DNA from: Alphaproteobacteria bacterium
Lineage (GTDB): Bacteria > Pseudomonadota > Alphaproteobacteria > DSM-16000 > Inquilinaceae
Length of the DNA: 64,000 bases
Assembly (NCBI GenBank): GCA_028277405.1
Contig: JANQGH010000098.1
Location: forward strand, 124,001 to 188,000
Direction of reading: 5' to 3'
Below the pieces are notes generated by a model that saw nothing but the letters and a program-made list of their open reading frames with translations, did no database searches and was not told the DNA's origin. The position numbers and the translations under genes are program-made. This document shows, piece by piece, positions 9,475-18,372 of this stretch (its first letter is position 1; each line of letters starts with the position of its first letter).

Positions 9475-10185
9475 ATGACGGAGGCCGAACAGGTAAGGCG
9501 GTGGTTGACCCGCTCCAGCCTTTTTGGAGACCTGGAAACAGGTGATCTCGATCCTTTGGTGTCGCTATGCCGACGCCGCGAACTGGCGCGTGGCCAGATG
9601 CTCTTCAACCAGGGGGACGAGGCGGACGGGCTTTACATCGTCACCGAGGGCATTCTGCGGATCGTCCTGGTCGCCGGCGATGGCAGAGAGCTGACACTGA
9701 ACCTCATGGAACCCGGCGACGTGGTCGGCGAAATCTCCTTGCTCGACGGTTTGCCACGCAGTGCCGGCGCCATCGCGCTGACCGAGGTCAGTTGTCTGGC
9801 CCTCAGCCGGACCGACTTCGAGGCCGCCATGGATGAGAATCCAGGCCTTTCGCGCCAGATCATCTACGCGCTGTGCGAGCTGTTGCGGCGAAACACCAGC
9901 ATCATCGGCGACCGCGCCTTCCTGGACCTGCGCGGCCGGCTGTGCCGCTTGCTCAGTGCGCTCGCCATCGGCCACGGGCGGCCCGGCGATGACGGCGCGA
10001 CCGAAATCGCCGTCCCCATCACGCAGAGCGACCTGGCGACCATGCTGGGGGCCACCCGCGAGGCCGTGAACAAGCAGATGAACGCGTTGGCGAAAGTCGG
10101 TCTCGTCCGATTGGCACAAGGGCGGGCCCTGATCCTCGACCGCGACGGGTTGGCCGAAATCACCGAGGAACAGGCGGCCGGTTGA
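9475..10185 (+). CDS. CRP/FNR-family cyclic-nucleotide-responsive regulator
   Basis: A 236-residue regulator. The N-terminal beta-roll carries a phosphate-binding cassette GEISLLDGLPRSAGAI with Glu86, Arg95 and Ser96, the residues that hold the cyclic nucleotide in CRP. The C-terminal winged helix (about 178-207) has recognition helix ATREAVNKQMNAL. Its Arg-Glu pair aligns with Arg180-Glu181 of E. coli CRP, with Lys in place of Arg185. No Cys cluster of FNR type is seen. Its stop overlaps the TTG start of crtY, so it should be co-transcribed with the carotenoid genes. Likely ligand and partner: the product of the nearby CHASE2 cyclase. Confidence 0.9.
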   Translation: MTEAEQVRRWLTRSSLFGDLETGDLDPLVSLCRRRELARGQMLFNQGDEADGLYIVTEGILRIVLVAGDGRELTLNLMEPGDVVGEISLLDGLPRSAGAIALTEVSCLALSRTDFEAAMDENPGLSRQIIYALCELLRRNTSIIGDRAFLDLRGRLCRLLSALAIGHGRPGDDGATEIAVPITQSDLATMLGATREAVNKQMNALAKVGLVRLAQGRALILDRDGLAEITEEQAAG

Positions 10186-11360
10186 CCCACGGGACGACAA
10201 CGCCGGGCTCGGAATCGCAGCCCTATGACGTTGTCATCGTTGGCGGTGGCCTCTCCGGCTGCCTGACGGCGTATCGCCTGTCCATGCGCGGACAGCTCAA
10301 GATCCTGCTGCTGGAGGCGGGGCCGAAGCTGGGCGGCAATCATACCTGGTCGTTTCACGAGACCGATGTTTCCGCGGACGTCCGAGACTGGCTTGCGCCC
10401 TTTGTCGCCCATCGCTGGTCTGGCCACGACGTCCGTTTTCCTGCCTATCACCGCACGCTGCAGGGCAGCTATTGGTCCGTGACGTCCGATCGCCTGCGCG
10501 CGGTGATGGCGGCGACCACGGGCCTCGACGTTCGCCTCGATGCTGCTGTGGACGAGGTATCGGTCGGGTCCATTCGGCTTGCAGACGGCCATGTGTTGCC
10601 GGCAAAGGCCGTCTTGGACGCCCGTGGCGATCGGGGCGCCGGCACGATCATTCGCCGCTATCAGAAGTTCCTCGGCCAAGAGGTGGAACTGGCGTCGCCG
10701 CACGGCCTCACCCGGCCGATCCTGATGGACGCGTCGGTCGACCAGGCGGACGGCTATCGTTTCATCTATGTCCTGCCGTTCACGGACACCCAACTGTTGA
10801 TCGAGGACACCTACTACGCGGACGGACCCGACCGCGACGCCGACCTGTTGCGGGGCCGCATCGCCGAATATGCGAGCGCGCAGGGCTGGTCGATTGCACG
10901 ACTGATCCGCGAGGAGGCCGGCACCTTGCCCATCGCGCTGGGCGGCAGGCCGCCGGCGTTCGAAGACGATCAGCCCCCGTCGATCGGGTTGCGCGCCGGC
11001 CTCTTTCATCCAACGACCGGCTATTCGTTGCCCGACGCGGCATCCCTCGCCGACCATCTGGCCAGCCTCGACGCGCTTGACGCCGATGCGGCACGGCAAG
11101 CCATCGCTGATTGGACGGCCGGGCGATGGCGGCGGCGCGGCTTTTATCGGCTGCTGAACAGAATGATGTTCCTTGCCGGCCACTCGCAGGATCGTTGGCG
11201 GGTCATGGCCCGTTTCTATCGATTGCCGGAGCCGCTGATCGCGCGCTTTTACGCCGACCGCTTGACGTTCGCCGACAGAGCCCGACTTTTGATCGGCAAG
11301 CCGCCGGTCCCTATCCGGGGTGCCCTCTCCGTCGTTTCGGAACGTTCGCTGACCTCATGA
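10182..11360 (+). CDS. crtY: Lycopene beta-cyclase
   Basis: A 392-residue flavoprotein of the CrtY type that closes both ends of lycopene to give beta-carotene. The N-terminal Rossmann motif VVIVGGGLSGCLTAYRL is followed by LLLEAGPKLGGNHTWSFHE, a CrtY signature; DGYRFIYVLPFT, LIEDTYYAD, and GLRAGLFHPTTGYSLPDA are further family segments. The only start codon upstream of the Rossmann motif is TTG at 10182, overlapping the crp stop, which implies translational coupling. The end overlaps crtI by four bases (ATGA). Confidence 0.95.
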   Translation: MTHGTTTPGSESQPYDVVIVGGGLSGCLTAYRLSMRGQLKILLLEAGPKLGGNHTWSFHETDVSADVRDWLAPFVAHRWSGHDVRFPAYHRTLQGSYWSVTSDRLRAVMAATTGLDVRLDAAVDEVSVGSIRLADGHVLPAKAVLDARGDRGAGTIIRRYQKFLGQEVELASPHGLTRPILMDASVDQADGYRFIYVLPFTDTQLLIEDTYYADGPDRDADLLRGRIAEYASAQGWSIARLIREEAGTLPIALGGRPPAFEDDQPPSIGLRAGLFHPTTGYSLPDAASLADHLASLDALDADAARQAIADWTAGRWRRRGFYRLLNRMMFLAGHSQDRWRVMARFYRLPEPLIARFYADRLTFADRARLLIGKPPVPIRGALSVVSERSLTS

Positions 11361-12883
11361 ACGCTAACGCTGCTGTCGATCATCCGGGTACCCGCACCGC
11401 TGTTGTCATCGGTGCGGGCTTTGGCGGGTTGGCCTTGGCCATCCGCCTGCAAAGCGCCGGCATCGCAACAACCCTGGTCGAACGGCGGGACAAGCCGGGC
11501 GGACGGGCCTATGTCTACGAGGATGGCGGCTACATTTTTGACGCCGGCCCCACCGTAATTACCGACCCAACGGCGCTGGAGGAACTGTTCGCCCTGTCGG
11601 GTCGAAGGCTGGCCGACTATGTCGACCTGCTTCCGGTCACGCCGTTCTATCGCCTGATCTGGGACGACGGTTACGCGTTCGACTATGTGAACGATCAGGC
11701 GGCGCTCGATCGGCAGATCGCGGAATTGTCGCCGCGCGACGTTGCGGGCTATCAGCGCTTCCTGGCGTACTCTCGGGCCGTCTTCGATGAGGGCTACCTG
11801 AAGCTCGGTACCAAGCCGTTCTTGCGCTTCTGGGACATGGTGCGCGTCGCACCGCAACTGGTGCGCCTCGAAAGTCACGCCAGCGTCTATGGCAAGGTGG
11901 CGCGCTTCATCGAAAACGAAAAGCTGCGCCAGGCGTTCAGTTTCCATTCCCTGCTCGTGGGCGGAAATCCGTTCGCGACCTCCGCCATCTATGCGCTCAT
12001 CCATGCGCTGGAGCGTGAATGGGGCGTGCACTTCCCGCGTGGCGGGACCGGCGCCCTGGTCCAGGGCTTGATACGCTTGTTTGAGGACCTCGGCGGGCGG
12101 GTCCTGTTGGACGCACCGGTCACCAGGATCGATGTGCGTGACGACCGCGTGTCCGGCGTGGAGCTTGAGAGCGGTCAGCGGATTGACTGCGACATCGTCG
12201 CCAGCAACGCGGATCTGGTGCACACTTACGGCACGCTCTTGGCCGAAACCGAACGCGGGCGGCGCGAGTCGGCCAAGCTGGCCAAGCGGCGCTTTTCCAA
12301 CTCGCTGTTCGTGGTCTATTTCGGCGCGGCGAAGACCTGGCCGGACCTGGCCCACCATACCGTGCTGTTCGGACCGCGCTATCGCGGCTTGATCGAAGAG
12401 GTGTTCAAGGGTCCGAACCTGCCGGACGATTTCTCGCTCTACCTGCATGCGCCGACAGCGACCGATCCGTCCCTGGCCCCGCCGGGCTGCACCTCGTTCT
12501 ACGTCCTGTCGCCGGTTCCGCATCTCGGTGCGGCGGAGATCGATTGGTCGGTCGAAGGGCCGCGCTATCGCGATCGGATTCTCCGACATTTGGACCAAAC
12601 CACCGTGCCCGGTCTCTTGGATTCGATTGAGACGACGCGCATTTTCACACCGGCGGATTTTCGCGACACCTTAAACAGCCATCTGGGTTCCGCCTTCTCC
12701 CTAGAACCGATCCTGCGGCAGAGCGCCTATTTCCGCGCGCACAATCGCGACGACCAGATACGGGGGCTCTATTTCGTCGGCGCCGGCACCCATCCGGGCG
12801 CGGGCATTCCCGGTGTCGTCGGTTCGGCCAAGGCGACGGCCGGCCTCGTGCTCGAAGACTTTGCGGTCGCCAGCGCCGCCTAA
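11357..12883 (+). CDS. crtI: Phytoene desaturase (lycopene-forming type)
   Basis: A 508-residue FAD enzyme that desaturates phytoene to lycopene. It has VVIGAGFGGLALAIRLQ near the N terminus, ERRDKPGGRAYVYEDGGYIF with DAGPTVITDP, and the C-terminal FAD segment GLYFVGAGTHPGAGIPGVVGSAKA, all typical of bacterial CrtI. The frame is open further upstream into crtY, but ATG at 11357 overlaps the crtY stop and gives the usual CrtI length. It is the middle gene of crtY-crtI-crtB. Confidence 0.96.
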   Translation: MNANAAVDHPGTRTAVVIGAGFGGLALAIRLQSAGIATTLVERRDKPGGRAYVYEDGGYIFDAGPTVITDPTALEELFALSGRRLADYVDLLPVTPFYRLIWDDGYAFDYVNDQAALDRQIAELSPRDVAGYQRFLAYSRAVFDEGYLKLGTKPFLRFWDMVRVAPQLVRLESHASVYGKVARFIENEKLRQAFSFHSLLVGGNPFATSAIYALIHALEREWGVHFPRGGTGALVQGLIRLFEDLGGRVLLDAPVTRIDVRDDRVSGVELESGQRIDCDIVASNADLVHTYGTLLAETERGRRESAKLAKRRFSNSLFVVYFGAAKTWPDLAHHTVLFGPRYRGLIEEVFKGPNLPDDFSLYLHAPTATDPSLAPPGCTSFYVLSPVPHLGAAEIDWSVEGPRYRDRILRHLDQTTVPGLLDSIETTRIFTPADFRDTLNSHLGSAFSLEPILRQSAYFRAHNRDDQIRGLYFVGAGTHPGAGIPGVVGSAKATAGLVLEDFAVASAA

Positions 12884-12900: not shown

Positions 12901-13845
12901 ATGAACAGCGAGCTGATCAAGCTCAGCGAGCGTGTCATTGCCGAAGGCTCGAAGAGTTTTGCGGCTGCGTCGCGCCTGCTGGATCGCCGCGCCCGGGAAT
13001 CGGCGGTTCTGCTGTACGCCTGGTGCCGCTACTGCGACGACATGGTCGACGGTCAGACCCTGGGGCAAGGTCGCGTCGACAGGGACGGCTCGGCCTCGGA
13101 GCGGCTGGAGGATCTGCGCCGTCAAACCGCCGCGGCATTGGAAAGCTCGGTCCCGGTCGACCCGCCGTTCGAGGCGCTACGCGTCGTTGTCCGCCGCCAC
13201 GGCATCCCACACGCCGCCCCGCGCCACCTGCTGGACGGCTTCTCGCTCGACCTGACCAACGTTCGCTGCGCGACATTTCAGGACACTTTGTTGTACGCCT
13301 ACCATGTCGCCGGTGTCGTCGGCCTGATGATGGCCTGGACAATGGATGTCGCCGACGAAGCCACCCTTGATCGCGCCTGCGACCTGGGTCTTGCGTTGCA
13401 ACTGACCAACATCGCCCGCGATGTTTTGGCGGATGCAGAGATCGGCCGTATCTATTTGCCGGTCGACTGGTTGGACGACGCGGGTGTCCCCCTCGATCCG
13501 GATCGGTTTTCCGATCACAAACAGCCTCTGGCGGCTGTCGTTGGCCGCTTGCTTGGTCAGGCTGAACCCTACTATGGCTCGGCGCTGGTCGGGATTGGCG
13601 CGCTGCGGGCGCGGCGGGCGTGGTCGATCGCGGCAGCCCGCGCCGTCTATCGCGAAATCGGCGTGACGGTCCGTCGCTCAGGTGCCGAGGCTTGGGATAG
13701 TCGCGCCGGGGTCTCCAAGCCGCGCAAGCTGGCGCTGCTCGCGGGCGCCTTGGCGCAGACGGTCTGGGTCAAGGCGGGCCTGGCAAATCTCGACACTGGC
13801 CGCGAGGGGCTGTGGCGTCGGCCGTCGCTTACGCCGTCGACCTGA
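12901..13845 (+). CDS. crtB: 15-cis-phytoene synthase
   Basis: A 314-residue trans-isoprenyl-diphosphate synthase that joins two geranylgeranyl diphosphates into phytoene. The first Asp-rich motif is CRYCDDMVD (about 41-50) and the second is LTNIARDVLADAEIGRIYLP (about 163-182), with YHVAGVVGLMM between them. It follows crtI by 17 bases. Its last 17 bases overlap the convergent crtZ, so no terminator separates them. Confidence 0.96.
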   Translation: MNSELIKLSERVIAEGSKSFAAASRLLDRRARESAVLLYAWCRYCDDMVDGQTLGQGRVDRDGSASERLEDLRRQTAAALESSVPVDPPFEALRVVVRRHGIPHAAPRHLLDGFSLDLTNVRCATFQDTLLYAYHVAGVVGLMMAWTMDVADEATLDRACDLGLALQLTNIARDVLADAEIGRIYLPVDWLDDAGVPLDPDRFSDHKQPLAAVVGRLLGQAEPYYGSALVGIGALRARRAWSIAAARAVYREIGVTVRRSGAEAWDSRAGVSKPRKLALLAGALAQTVWVKAGLANLDTGREGLWRRPSLTPST

Positions 13846-14326
13846 GCGACCGTCGCGACTCTTTCAACCGCTCGCGCAGGACTTCCGGCCGTCGGGCGTA
13901 CAGAAAGCCGAAAGAGACGCAGCCCTCCTTGCCTGAAACCGCGTGATGCAGCCGATGGGCCTCCACGAGGCGCTTCAGATAGCGGTTTCGGGGCGCGTAA
14001 CGAAACGGCCACCGCCGATGGACCAGACCATCATGCACAAGGAAGTAAAGAACGCCGTAAAGCGTAACGCCGATGGCCAGCCACCACAGGGGCGACCAGG
14101 CGTCACCGGCGGCAAACAGAACGACCGCGATACCGGCGAAGATGATTGCAAAACGATCGTTCTTCTCGAAGACGCCCGAACGCGGTTCGTGATGCGATTT
14201 GTGCCAGCGCCAGCCCCAGCCGTGCATGACGTACCGATGGGTGAACCAGGCGACACCCTCCATGCCGACCACGGCGCCGACGACGATCAGAATAGGGACA
14301 AGCACGTCAACCATGCGCCAGGTCAC
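13829..14326 (-). CDS. crtZ: Beta-carotene hydroxylase (fatty-acid-hydroxylase type)
   Basis: A 165-residue membrane di-iron enzyme converting beta-carotene to zeaxanthin. The four His boxes are present: THRYVMHG, HKSHHEP, HDGLVH and HRLHHAVSGKEGCVSFGFLYA. Hydrophobic helices lie at about 5-25 and 58-98. The frame begins with GTG at 14326; ATG four codons in (14314) is the alternative. Transcribed toward crtB, it lies downstream of the ABC transporter genes on the same strand, separated by 107 bases, so it may share their transcript or have its own promoter. Confidence 0.95.
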   Translation of the reverse strand: MTWRMVDVLVPILIVVGAVVGMEGVAWFTHRYVMHGWGWRWHKSHHEPRSGVFEKNDRFAIIFAGIAVVLFAAGDAWSPLWWLAIGVTLYGVLYFLVHDGLVHRRWPFRYAPRNRYLKRLVEAHRLHHAVSGKEGCVSFGFLYARRPEVLRERLKESRRSLRSTA

Positions 14327-14433: not shown

Positions 14434-15621
14434 TCACGCGCGCATCTTGCGGCCTTCGGCAATGATGGCTAGGCCCAGGCCCAAGGCGGCGAATACCGAC
14501 AAACCGAGCCATCCGTCGGCCATGGCGGAAATCGCACCGCCTTGGCCTAATGTCCCATTATAGGCCTCGATGGCCCAGGCGTTGGGCGTAATCCAGCCAA
14601 GATCGCGCAGCCATTCCGGCATCAGAAAGCGCGGCGCCATGCTGCCCCCGATGGCGGAAAGGATCAGCACGGTAAAGTTGGACAGGGAGAAGGCCTGTTC
14701 CCGGCTGGCGCTGAGCGTGCAAAGGGCCAGGGCCAGACCGCTGGCCGCCGCGGCCGCCAAGACGGTCGTCGCTATCCAGGCCGGCAAAACACCTAGCCAT
14801 TCAACGCCGTAGAAGATCCAGGCCACGATGAAGATGACCAACGCCTGGGCAGTGCCCTGCGCCGTCAGAAACAGAAAGCGTCCTCCGATCAGGACCCCGG
14901 CCCCGCCGGAGGACAGGGCAAGGCGGGCGCGCACGCCGCTCAGACGCTCCTCGACAATGCCGACCGCGCCCTGAACGCTGGAAAACAGCAAAAACAGTAT
15001 TGCGACGGCCCCCGCATAGTAGGTCACGGCATCGGCGGGTCCTTCGACCTGATCGACGCTTTCGATGACGATCAGGCTGTTGGCAGGCGCGCCTTGTCCG
15101 TCAAGGGCGCCAATCGTCTGCTCCAACCCCGCCTGCTGCACCGGATCAAGCGCGCCAATGACCGCTGTCAGCGCATTGGCCTGGCGCCGCAGCGCGATGT
15201 CGGGCAGGTCTGCCGCCAAACGCTCTTGGATGTGTCCGATGAGCATCGAGCTTGGCAGTTCGTTGGCACTGGTGATCAGCAGCCGCAGCGGCGGCGTGTC
15301 GCTGTCGGCCAATGGTCGCTCGATGATCAGGCCGACATCGTGACTGCCGTTCGCGACCGCCACCCGCACGGCGTCGATATCCTGCTCGACCCTCACTGCG
15401 ACCCCTTGGGCCGTTTGCAGGGCCTCGATCAGGCGCGCGCCGGTCTCGTCGGCGGTCTGGTCCGTGGCCGAGACCCGCACGCTGATATCGCCGCCGGCCG
15501 ACCCGCCGAAGATCGCCGCGAAGATGACGAAGATTACGCTTGGTAAGACAAAGGTCATGACCAAGGCGCCGCGATCGCGGACGAGGCGCAGCAAGGCAAC
15601 ACGAAAGACGGCCCAGATCAC
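14434..15621 (-). CDS. ABC-2-type transporter permease
   Basis: A 395-residue inner-membrane protein: an N-terminal helix (about 19-40), a large soluble loop (about 45-195), then five or six helices to the C terminus, the layout of ABC-2 (YhgE/drug-exporter type) permeases. SLSNFTVLILSAIGGSMAPRFLMPEWL is a typical late segment. Its start overlaps the ATPase stop by four bases (ATGA). Encoded between crtE and crtZ, its cargo may be a carotenoid, a glycolipid or another hydrophobic compound; none is proven. Confidence 0.87.
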   Translation of the reverse strand: MIWAVFRVALLRLVRDRGALVMTFVLPSVIFVIFAAIFGGSAGGDISVRVSATDQTADETGARLIEALQTAQGVAVRVEQDIDAVRVAVANGSHDVGLIIERPLADSDTPPLRLLITSANELPSSMLIGHIQERLAADLPDIALRRQANALTAVIGALDPVQQAGLEQTIGALDGQGAPANSLIVIESVDQVEGPADAVTYYAGAVAILFLLFSSVQGAVGIVEERLSGVRARLALSSGGAGVLIGGRFLFLTAQGTAQALVIFIVAWIFYGVEWLGVLPAWIATTVLAAAAASGLALALCTLSASREQAFSLSNFTVLILSAIGGSMAPRFLMPEWLRDLGWITPNAWAIEAYNGTLGQGGAISAMADGWLGLSVFAALGLGLAIIAEGRKMRA

Positions 15622-16562
15622 GGCGGGCTCTTACGATCGCAAAGCACAGCGTAAAGGGTGTCAAGACCGGGCTTGCGGACGCGAATCTCGTCGATCTCGA
15701 GTGCCTTCAGTTCGGCTTCGATGTCGTCGGCGGTGAGGTCTACGAACCCGCGCCAGATCAGCCCGGATTCTGCTTCCGATAGCCCGACCCGCTGCAGGTG
15801 AACCGACACGTCTGGTGCCGGCCGTGTGCCCACCCTGACCATCATCTCGTGGCCGCCATCGTAGTGTTCCGACACCAGGTCACGGGGGCGGCCAACGGCG
15901 CGAAGCTGGCCGTCGACCAAAATCGCCACGCGGTCGGCCAACCGTTCCGCCCGATCGAGTTCGTGGGTCGACAGCAGGATCGCCATCCCGTCATCGCGCA
16001 GATCCGCGATCAGCGCAAGAACCCCGTCCAACGCCGCCTGATCGACGGCCACGGTCGGCTCGTCCAGAACCAGCAGGGCAGGCTGATGCAACAGCGCGCA
16101 GGCAATGTTCGTGCGCCTTTGATAGCCGCCGGACAGCCTGGCCACCCGCGTGTGTTGATGCCCTGTCAGTTGTGCGCGCTCTAGCGCCTCTGGTACGCGC
16201 GACGCCAGGTCCGCCCGAGACAGGCCGGAAAGGCGGCCAAGCACAAAGAGGTTCTCGCGGACCGAAAGGTGGTCGTAGAGGGCTATTTCCTGCGGCACAA
16301 GGCCTATCCGCGCGCGCGCCTTGGACGAACGCGCAGGGTCTTTGCCGAGCACGCTGACGGTGCCGGCGGCAGGGCGTACCAAGCCGCAGGCGGCGCGCAT
16401 GAATGTGGTCTTGCCAGCGCCATTGGGCCCGATCAGCGCACAGATCTCGCCGCCGAATACTTCCAGGTTAACGGCCGTAAGGACGGGAAGGCCCGCCAAG
16501 GCGACATCGAGAGATTTCGCGGCAAGCACCGGACCGTCCCGATCGCGGGATTGCTCAGCCAT
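15618..16562 (-). CDS. ABC transporter ATP-binding protein
   Basis: A 314-residue nucleotide-binding subunit with Walker A GPNGAGKTT, signature LSGGYQRR, Walker B LLVLDEP and the His switch STHELDRAE. The signature has Tyr where Gln is most usual. A C-terminal extension of about 80 residues follows the core. The frame extends 17 codons further up, but ATG at 16562 overlaps the crtE end by eight bases and gives a normal N terminus (MAEQSRDRDGPVL). Together with the next gene it forms an exporter translationally coupled to crtE. Confidence 0.9.
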   Translation of the reverse strand: MAEQSRDRDGPVLAAKSLDVALAGLPVLTAVNLEVFGGEICALIGPNGAGKTTFMRAACGLVRPAAGTVSVLGKDPARSSKARARIGLVPQEIALYDHLSVRENLFVLGRLSGLSRADLASRVPEALERAQLTGHQHTRVARLSGGYQRRTNIACALLHQPALLVLDEPTVAVDQAALDGVLALIADLRDDGMAILLSTHELDRAERLADRVAILVDGQLRAVGRPRDLVSEHYDGGHEMMVRVGTRPAPDVSVHLQRVGLSEAESGLIWRGFVDLTADDIEAELKALEIDEIRVRKPGLDTLYAVLCDRKSPP

Positions 16563-17469
16563 CGAGGTGCGGTTCAAACACCGTACGCAGATAGGGCGCG
16601 AGTGCGGGCGCAACGGGCGAACATCCGTCGATCAGGCTCACCGCCTGCTCCATATGAAAGCGGGCTCCGTTGCGGGTCGCCGCGACGCCGTCGACGGAAA
16701 CCAGCGTCGGTTTGTCCCCGTCCTGTCGAACATCCTTGCCGACACTGGCCTGGTCCGCAGTGACATCCAGGATGTCATCGACGGTTTGAAACACCTCGCC
16801 GATATGGTCGGCCGCGTCGCGCATCTTGTCCGCCCGCGGACCGTCGACGGACGCGACGAGAAGGCCGATGTCGACCGCCGCGCCGATCAGCGCGCCGGTC
16901 TTGCGCCGGTTCAGTTCACGCAAGGCCTGCCTGTCGTTCAATTCTGGCCCGCACCGCAGGTCGATTTCCTGGCCGCCCACCAATCCGGCCAGTCCGGCGG
17001 CATCCGCCAAACGGGCGGTAATGCCGAGCTTCGTGTCGTTCGCCAGGCCGGTCGTTGCCGTGACGACGGCAAAAGCTCGGGTTACCAGCGCAATAGAGGC
17101 AAGGATTGCCATGTCCTCGCCGAAAAGCCTGTGAGTGGTCGGCAGCCCACGGCGCCTTGCCGCATCGTCCATCGACGGCAGATCGTCCAGGATCAAAGAG
17201 GCGGCATGGATCATCTCGATGGCGCAAGCCGGGTCGATCGCCGTCGCGACGTCGCCGCCAAACTGCTGAACCGTCAGCAGGGTCACGACAGGTCGGAAGC
17301 GCTTACCGGGAGACGTCAGGGCGTGACGCATGGCCTGCGCAACCAGGCCGTCTCGCGCCGTACCGTTGGTCATCAAGGCATCCAGGCGTACGTCAATCCG
17401 CCCTTTGAGAGCGTCCGGCTGTTGGGCGGTGCGGTCCATAGCGTCGCTGATGTTCGATTGACGGCGCAT
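16555..17469 (-). CDS. crtE: Geranylgeranyl diphosphate synthase
   Basis: A 304-residue trans-prenyltransferase supplying C20 diphosphate for CrtB. The first Asp-rich motif is LDDLPSMDD (about 93-101), the second TVDDILD (about 230-236), with GKRFRPVVTLL and GGQEIDL as expected. The extra residues within DDLPSMDD are usual for bacterial CrtE/IspA. It leads the minus-strand unit crtE-ATPase-permease and overlaps the ATPase start. A plausible sigma-70 promoter lies about 110 bases upstream. Confidence 0.93.
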   Translation of the reverse strand: MRRQSNISDAMDRTAQQPDALKGRIDVRLDALMTNGTARDGLVAQAMRHALTSPGKRFRPVVTLLTVQQFGGDVATAIDPACAIEMIHAASLILDDLPSMDDAARRRGLPTTHRLFGEDMAILASIALVTRAFAVVTATTGLANDTKLGITARLADAAGLAGLVGGQEIDLRCGPELNDRQALRELNRRKTGALIGAAVDIGLLVASVDGPRADKMRDAADHIGEVFQTVDDILDVTADQASVGKDVRQDGDKPTLVSVDGVAATRNGARFHMEQAVSLIDGCSPVAPALAPYLRTVFEPHLDG

Positions 17470-17655: not shown

Positions 17656-18372
17656 CTATTCGGCGGCTCGGACGCCGGTTGGAAGTCCGACCCGTGCGAA
17701 CGGATTGCTGATTGAGATGCCGGGATTGGGGTAATAGTCGACGAACAGATTGATGCGCGGCTTGCGGCCCGAATGTCGAACGGAATGCCGCATGCGGTTG
17801 TTGAAATCATAGGCCCGGCCGGCCGCCATGGCGATATTTCGACCGCCAATCTTGTAGCGAACGCCGGCATTGCCATCGATCGCGACGTGGATGCGGTGGG
17901 CGCGCTCCGCCATCGGCTGGCCATCCGTGTGGGGGTCGATGCGCAACCCTGGCTGCAGGCGCACGAGCGCCAGCCGCGTTATGACGCCGTGCGGTGTGCG
18001 CAGCGAGGCAATGGTCTGATCGACGATCGGCTCCAGCACCTCGCGCCACTCCAACCAGTCCGGAAACGTGTAGACGGGGCCGAGATCGGTTTCTTCGCGC
18101 TTGATCGGCATGAACGCGGCCGCATCGACACCCCGGACGGTCGCCCAGTGCTGCACCAGGTCCTCCAGATGAGGGAACCCGAGCGTGTTGTAGCGGCGAT
18201 GCCACTCATGCTTGAACAGGATCGACTGGGCCGTCGCGTGTGCACCGGCGGCCAGCGCCTCCTGGCGAAACGTGTTGGCCGTCCACGCTTCCTCTGGCAG
18301 CGATGCCAGCTTCTGCTTCAGACTTTCGGTTTTGACCGGACCCAGATCCTTGATCGGCGTGCCGATATCCAT
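17656..18372 (-). CDS. Aspartyl/asparaginyl beta-hydroxylase-family 2-oxoglutarate/Fe(II) protein
   Basis: A 238-residue cytosolic protein of the Asp/Asn hydroxylase cupin fold. The iron-binding HxD is in LRIDPHTDGQ (about 147-156) and a second His is in HSVRHSGRKPRINLFVDY (about 196-213), where the Arg should bind 2-oxoglutarate. The preceding RALRIHVAID-like segment (AHRIHVAIDGN) also fits. Family members hydroxylate aspartate residues, free amino acids or lipid head groups; the substrate is unknown here. It is a single gene with its own AT-richer promoter region. Confidence 0.75.
   Translation of the reverse strand: MDIGTPIKDLGPVKTESLKQKLASLPEEAWTANTFRQEALAAGAHATAQSILFKHEWHRRYNTLGFPHLEDLVQHWATVRGVDAAAFMPIKREETDLGPVYTFPDWLEWREVLEPIVDQTIASLRTPHGVITRLALVRLQPGLRIDPHTDGQPMAERAHRIHVAIDGNAGVRYKIGGRNIAMAAGRAYDFNNRMRHSVRHSGRKPRINLFVDYYPNPGISISNPFARVGLPTGVRAAE

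Follow-up and report, generated by a model that had tools for sequence, protein, structure and literature searches.

The carotenoid gene cluster in the window, that is, the whole stretch of 64,000 nucleotides of alphaproteobacterial DNA analysed here, raises the question of what an ABC exporter encoded directly behind crtE might carry. The cluster contains the following genes:

10182-11360, plus strand: crtY, lycopene beta-cyclase (NCBIfam TIGR01789, 452.7 bits against an equivalog cut-off of 215.2)
11357-12883, plus strand: crtI, phytoene desaturase (NCBIfam crtI_fam, 712.1 against a subfamily cut-off of 238.1)
12901-13845, plus strand: crtB, phytoene synthase (Pfam SQS_PSY, 213.9 bits; NCBIfam CrtB, 344.2, below the equivalog cut-off of 480)
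13829-14326, minus strand: crtZ, beta-carotene hydroxylase (Pfam FA_hydroxylase, 52 bits)
14434-15621, minus strand: ABC-2 permease with a GTG start (Pfam ABC2_membrane_3, 96.6 bits against a cut-off of 31.6)
15618-16562, minus strand: ABC ATPase, DrrA-like, with an ATG start (Pfam ABC_tran, 111.1 bits against a cut-off of 25)
16555-17469, minus strand: crtE-type prenyl diphosphate synthase (Pfam polyprenyl_synt, 148.3 bits against a cut-off of 27)

On the minus strand, crtE is the first gene of a coupled set, crtE-ATPase-permease, which faces crtY-crtI-crtB on the opposite strand and is adjoined by crtZ, the latter starting 107 bases past the permease and overlapping crtB with its 3' end. As the preliminary description had stated, the crtE stop and the ATPase start share eight bases (ATGGCTGA), while the ATPase stop and the permease start share four (GTGA); the ATG of crtI, as read from the sequence, also overlaps the crtY stop by four bases. 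The permease is present in a single copy in the window's genome, and a foreign GC content of the ABC/crtE set was ruled out, its value being 0.651 and that of the surroundings 0.64. CrtY and CrtI score above their curated cut-offs and a CrtZ-like hydroxylase is present, a combination of enzymes that predicts zeaxanthin as the most likely product. The name crtE was given by gene context, as both NCBIfam models stay below cut-off (NF045685 CrtE, 193.5 against 460; NF045485 FPP synthase, 227.7 against 275), and its product has a DDLPSMDD motif at residue 95. Since the genome encodes two further prenyl synthases (35% and 30% identity to the crtE product), the copy in the cluster is probably dedicated to it.

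The ATPase contains all the expected motifs, namely Walker A (GPNGAGKT), LSGG, Walker B and the H-loop, which, together with the Pfam score of the permease and its ABCA/ABCG/ABCH-type transmembrane fold, place the pair among predicted ABC-2 exporters. In the AlphaFold model of the permease monomer (pLDDT 87.4), an alpha/beta domain outside the cytoplasm (about residues 45-190) separates the first helix from the remaining ones. In structure comparisons, Foldseek among them, the best matches of this fold were ABCH, ABCA and ABCG lipid exporters. The best solved match was ABCH-9C with ceramide (Z 22.5 over 348 residues), an ABC lipid exporter type from Tribolium castaneum that is like the permease even in the domain after TM1, although it shares 18% identity with it, is one chain with its own ATPase, and comes from an insect and acts on another lipid. 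ABCA4 with N-retinylidene-PE gave Z 20.8, and the folds of ABCA4, ABCA1 and ABCA7 together ranged from about 19 to 21. The best solved relatives of the ATPase were ABCA7 (E 9e-68), ABCA3, ABCA4 (1.1e-58) and ABCA1. The vertebrate lipid and retinoid transporters ABCA4, ABCA1 and ABCA7 are like the window pair in both ATPase sequence and permease fold, but each is one full-length polypeptide with large domains outside the cell, and ABCA4 is an importer. The modelled fold therefore suits a transporter of hydrophobic compounds resembling lipids and names no substrate, because NosY, although no lipid exporter, reaches the same scores as the ABCA proteins (Z about 21). Among bacteria, dedicated transport of an isoprenoid lipid to the outer membrane reportedly has a precedent in HpnN, an RND transporter for hopanoids, which differs from the window pair in family and substrate.

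These folds would also suit the alternative that the pump exports some other lipid, such as a phospholipid, a glycolipid or an acyl-glycosyl compound, so that the membrane can accept the pigment and the link to carotenoids is physiological, since the closest folds are general lipid exporters (ABCH-9C, for ceramide, ABCA7 and ABCA1). Another alternative follows from the best NCBIfam match of the ATPase, which is the DrrA model of the DrrAB daunorubicin efflux system: a drug- or stress-efflux pump might have joined carotenoid clusters by chance and travelled with them. The ATPase is DrrA-like, but the DrrA and DrrB models both stay below cut-off (TIGR01188, 194.5 bits against 312.45; TIGR01247, 36.9 against 223.05).

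Whether the association with carotenoid genes is a local accident was addressed by scanning a genome-contig collection with an alignment of six permeases, which gave 290 relatives, and by searching the neighbourhoods of the best 80 by tblastn with carotenoid and control proteins. The scan used the permease sequence only, so the neighbourhood was not built in; the best 80 are dominated by Caulobacter and Devosia and are therefore not independent of each other. Carotenoid genes were found on the fetched stretch in 72 of the best 80 (of 290), and the crtE-ATPase-permease triplet, for which a search across genomes had been proposed, in 52, which rules out a one-off insertion. Among the other crt-bearing loci, 19 have the ABC and crt genes in another order, and one contig begins in the permease. 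The eight stretches devoid of crt genes comprise seven from Microvirga, where the ABC stands alone, and one at a contig end (L063); carotenoid genes lie elsewhere in all eight of these genomes, as a pair of C30-type crtI genes in each of the seven Microvirga and as a crtB-like gene in that of L063. Within the best 80 of 290, the triplet occurs in Devosiaceae, Caulobacteraceae, Xanthobacteraceae, Phyllobacteriaceae, Rhizobiaceae, Methylocystaceae and Robiginitomaculaceae of the Alphaproteobacteria, and in Ectothiorhodospiraceae and Wenzhouxiangellaceae of the Gammaproteobacteria. Moreover, a search of the class sample and plasmid records gave five good permease homologues: G136 and G239 have the layout of the window (crtY-crtI-crtB facing crtZ-crtW-permease-ATPase-crtE), that of Neorhizobium lies beside crtW and crtZ, and those of Microvirga ossetica and G296 lie in C30-type clusters. 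A strong link of the ATPase and permease to the carotenoid pathway emerges from these neighbourhoods.

The arrangement of the genes is conserved as well. With the start nearest the preceding stop picked by script, the ATPase and permease genes share four bases at 71 of 79 related loci; crtE and the ATPase gene do so in 33 of the 52 triplets (both from the best 80 of 290). Because this geometry recurs, the overlaps in the window are, judged from the sequences compared, not due to chance, and the translational coupling of crtE, ATPase and permease proposed in the preliminary description is well supported. The gene directly downstream of the permease is crtZ in 42 and crtW in 16 of the best 80 (of 290), and wherever crtY is present (45 loci), so is crtZ or crtW. 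The position of crtE immediately upstream in the 52 triplets, with its frequent four-base overlap, would also suit a pump for removing an intermediate that is toxic or exerts feedback, or an isoprenoid in shared use (GGPP, FPP or a prenyl alcohol), hence the coupling to crtE. Against such export stand the downstream neighbours of the ABC, which are end-of-pathway enzymes, and the C40 loci L072, L087, L088 and L032, in which the ABC lies away from crtE and yet adjoins crtW or crtZ.

The cluster is patchily distributed, which fits a travelling efflux pump. The permease was found at E 1e-10 in none of 60 sampled relatives, and 16 genomes of the same family have neither a CrtY over cut-off nor the permease; the cluster is therefore rare in its family. 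Across 385 genomes of the class, nine have a CrtY over cut-off and four a strong permease match, counts that rest on scoring just four or five candidates in each genome, so that misses are possible. Strong matches, defined as E 1e-80 or better by a limit set after seeing the table, occur in three of the nine CrtY genomes against one of the 376 others (Fisher p 3.5e-5), and the lone positive among the latter lies in a C30 cluster. All six CrtY genomes of the class sample that are free of the permease have crtZ, which rules out that zeaxanthin requires the pump; xanthophylls do not need it, and it is accessory. In one of them (G307), crtE adjoins crtZ with no ABC between. The earlier statement that zeaxanthin clusters do not normally include ABC-2 transporters holds for some lineages only; in Devosia, Caulobacter, Xanthobacter, Methylobacterium and some Gammaproteobacteria, this subfamily occurs regularly. 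As for chance joining of an efflux pump, it would not be expected to yield one shared crtE-ATPase-permease-crtZ/W order in two classes of Proteobacteria, the GC content of the set equals that of its surroundings, and the C30 link holds in the seven Microvirga with dispersed genes; we consider this origin highly improbable.

The C30 clusters bear most directly on the substrate. In Methylobacterium and Microvirga, clusters with two crtI-like desaturases, an acyltransferase and a glycosyltransferase have the same ABC subfamily, and crtE is absent from them; the shared factor is therefore the carotenoid and not the product of crtE. In the permease tree, which left out L050 (same record as L020), L060 and L024, the 17 rows of C30 users (Methylobacteriaceae) group in a single clade nested among the C40 users, and two end products of different chemistry are thus served by one family. 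One row labelled C40 (L100) has C30-type genes. Of the ten distant permeases labelled as outgroup, two (L005, L006) lie near crt-like genes, and two short ones (L009, L012) were placed within the tree on a long branch. The residues Y201, G204, A205, S327 and R331 are found in 83 of 83 permease rows against few or none of eight outgroup rows, a contrast that is partly circular, as two retrieval patterns contained YYAGA and PR[FY]. Export of GGPP in particular is weakened by the C30 clusters without crtE, and removal of an intermediate or shared isoprenoid in general now appears improbable. The carotenoid link of the preliminary description is well supported, while another isoprenoid, which it had also allowed, is less likely than a carotenoid because the same subfamily serves clusters that lack crtE. 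For the export of another lipid, the acyltransferase and glycosyltransferase of the C30 clusters are a point in favour; however, most C40 loci have no query-type acyltransferase or glycosyltransferase beside the ABC, and a crtX-like gene occurs in only nine of the best 80 (of 290), and we regard this explanation as unlikely.

We therefore propose that the ATPase and permease are probably a dedicated inner-membrane exporter (flippase) of the cluster's carotenoid, here most likely zeaxanthin. A finished carotenoid, either a xanthophyll or a C30 compound, is the likely substrate, because crtZ or crtW follows the permease in most loci and accompanies crtY wherever the latter occurs, and because C30 clusters without crtE use the same subfamily. 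In the mechanism that we infer, CrtE, CrtB, CrtI, CrtY and CrtZ would build the pigment on the cytoplasmic face of the inner membrane, and a permease homodimer with two ATPases would take the hydroxylated carotenoid sideways from the bilayer. Driven by ATP, the pump would move the carotenoid, by one polar end or entirely, to the periplasmic side, after which the pigment might span the inner membrane or continue to the outer one. Through its translational coupling to crtE, the amount of pump would follow the pathway flux. Delivery to the outer membrane is speculative, and no recurrent outer-membrane or membrane-fusion gene was seen beside the ABC among the neighbour clusters.

In the C30 clade, a possible later step is represented by a DUF2141 protein, which adjoins the ABC in 17 of 17 loci (15 loci together with L021 and L022), even where the other carotenoid genes lie elsewhere. 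A signal peptide can be seen in most of these copies, a hint that one step takes place in the periplasm; for one example (L093:8525-8938), the AlphaFold model is all-beta, and no PDB fold matched it at a threshold of E 0.001. The window's genome has no DUF2141 gene, and an obligate partnership with the pump is therefore ruled out here. In one account of Sphingomonadales crt clusters (PMC5989583), which have the same crt enzymes as the window cluster, DUF2141 is reported beside crtG, whereas the words 'ABC' and 'transporter' occur zero times.

Ten more distant homologue loci were also inspected. Eight of them lack carotenoid genes in the vicinity; of the remaining two, one has a crtN-like gene of 55% identity (L025) and the other just a 31-residue fragment (L026). 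At L025:92-4958, an ABC-2 pair (about 26-29% identity to the window permease) and a PEMT-domain methyltransferase gene lie beside the crtN-like gene, so the distant family may hold a second carotenoid-linked ABC branch, or this may be chance. A broader and rather doubtful reading would make this family the founder of a class of bacterial exporters dedicated to carotenoids. The ABC flippase would then carry xanthophylls and C30 glyco-carotenoids out of the inner leaflet into the periplasm, secreted DUF2141 would act as their carrier to the outer membrane in Methylobacteriaceae, and the L025 pair would form a second branch. In the open-licence full-text literature, no description was found of an ABC transporter in carotenoid clusters, nor of a bacterial machine moving a finished carotenoid across a membrane; the class of machine is known, and its substrate assignment is undescribed in the literature searched. 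A conserved two-gene pump at astaxanthin-, zeaxanthin- and C30-type clusters makes the placement of carotenoids in Gram-negative bacteria, by membrane and leaflet, a testable question, for which cultured relatives of Methylobacterium, Caulobacter and Devosia are at hand, and such a pump would also be of use where carotenoids are to be released from production cells.

A promoter scan gave one site against 0.7 expected and was of no use. A Crp/Fnr-type regulator at 9475-10185 ends four bases inside the crtY start (10182) and may be coupled to it, and a protein with an aspartyl/asparaginyl beta-hydroxylase domain is encoded at 17656-18372, upstream of crtE on the same strand; by tblastn in the best 80 of 290 related loci, no such regulator was found beside crt genes, and no such hydroxylase-domain gene was seen. 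In Neorhizobium sp. SOG26 (L020:8840-10975), a 711-residue protein that by eye resembles a bacteriophytochrome is encoded directly upstream of the ABC operon, for which light control is possible.
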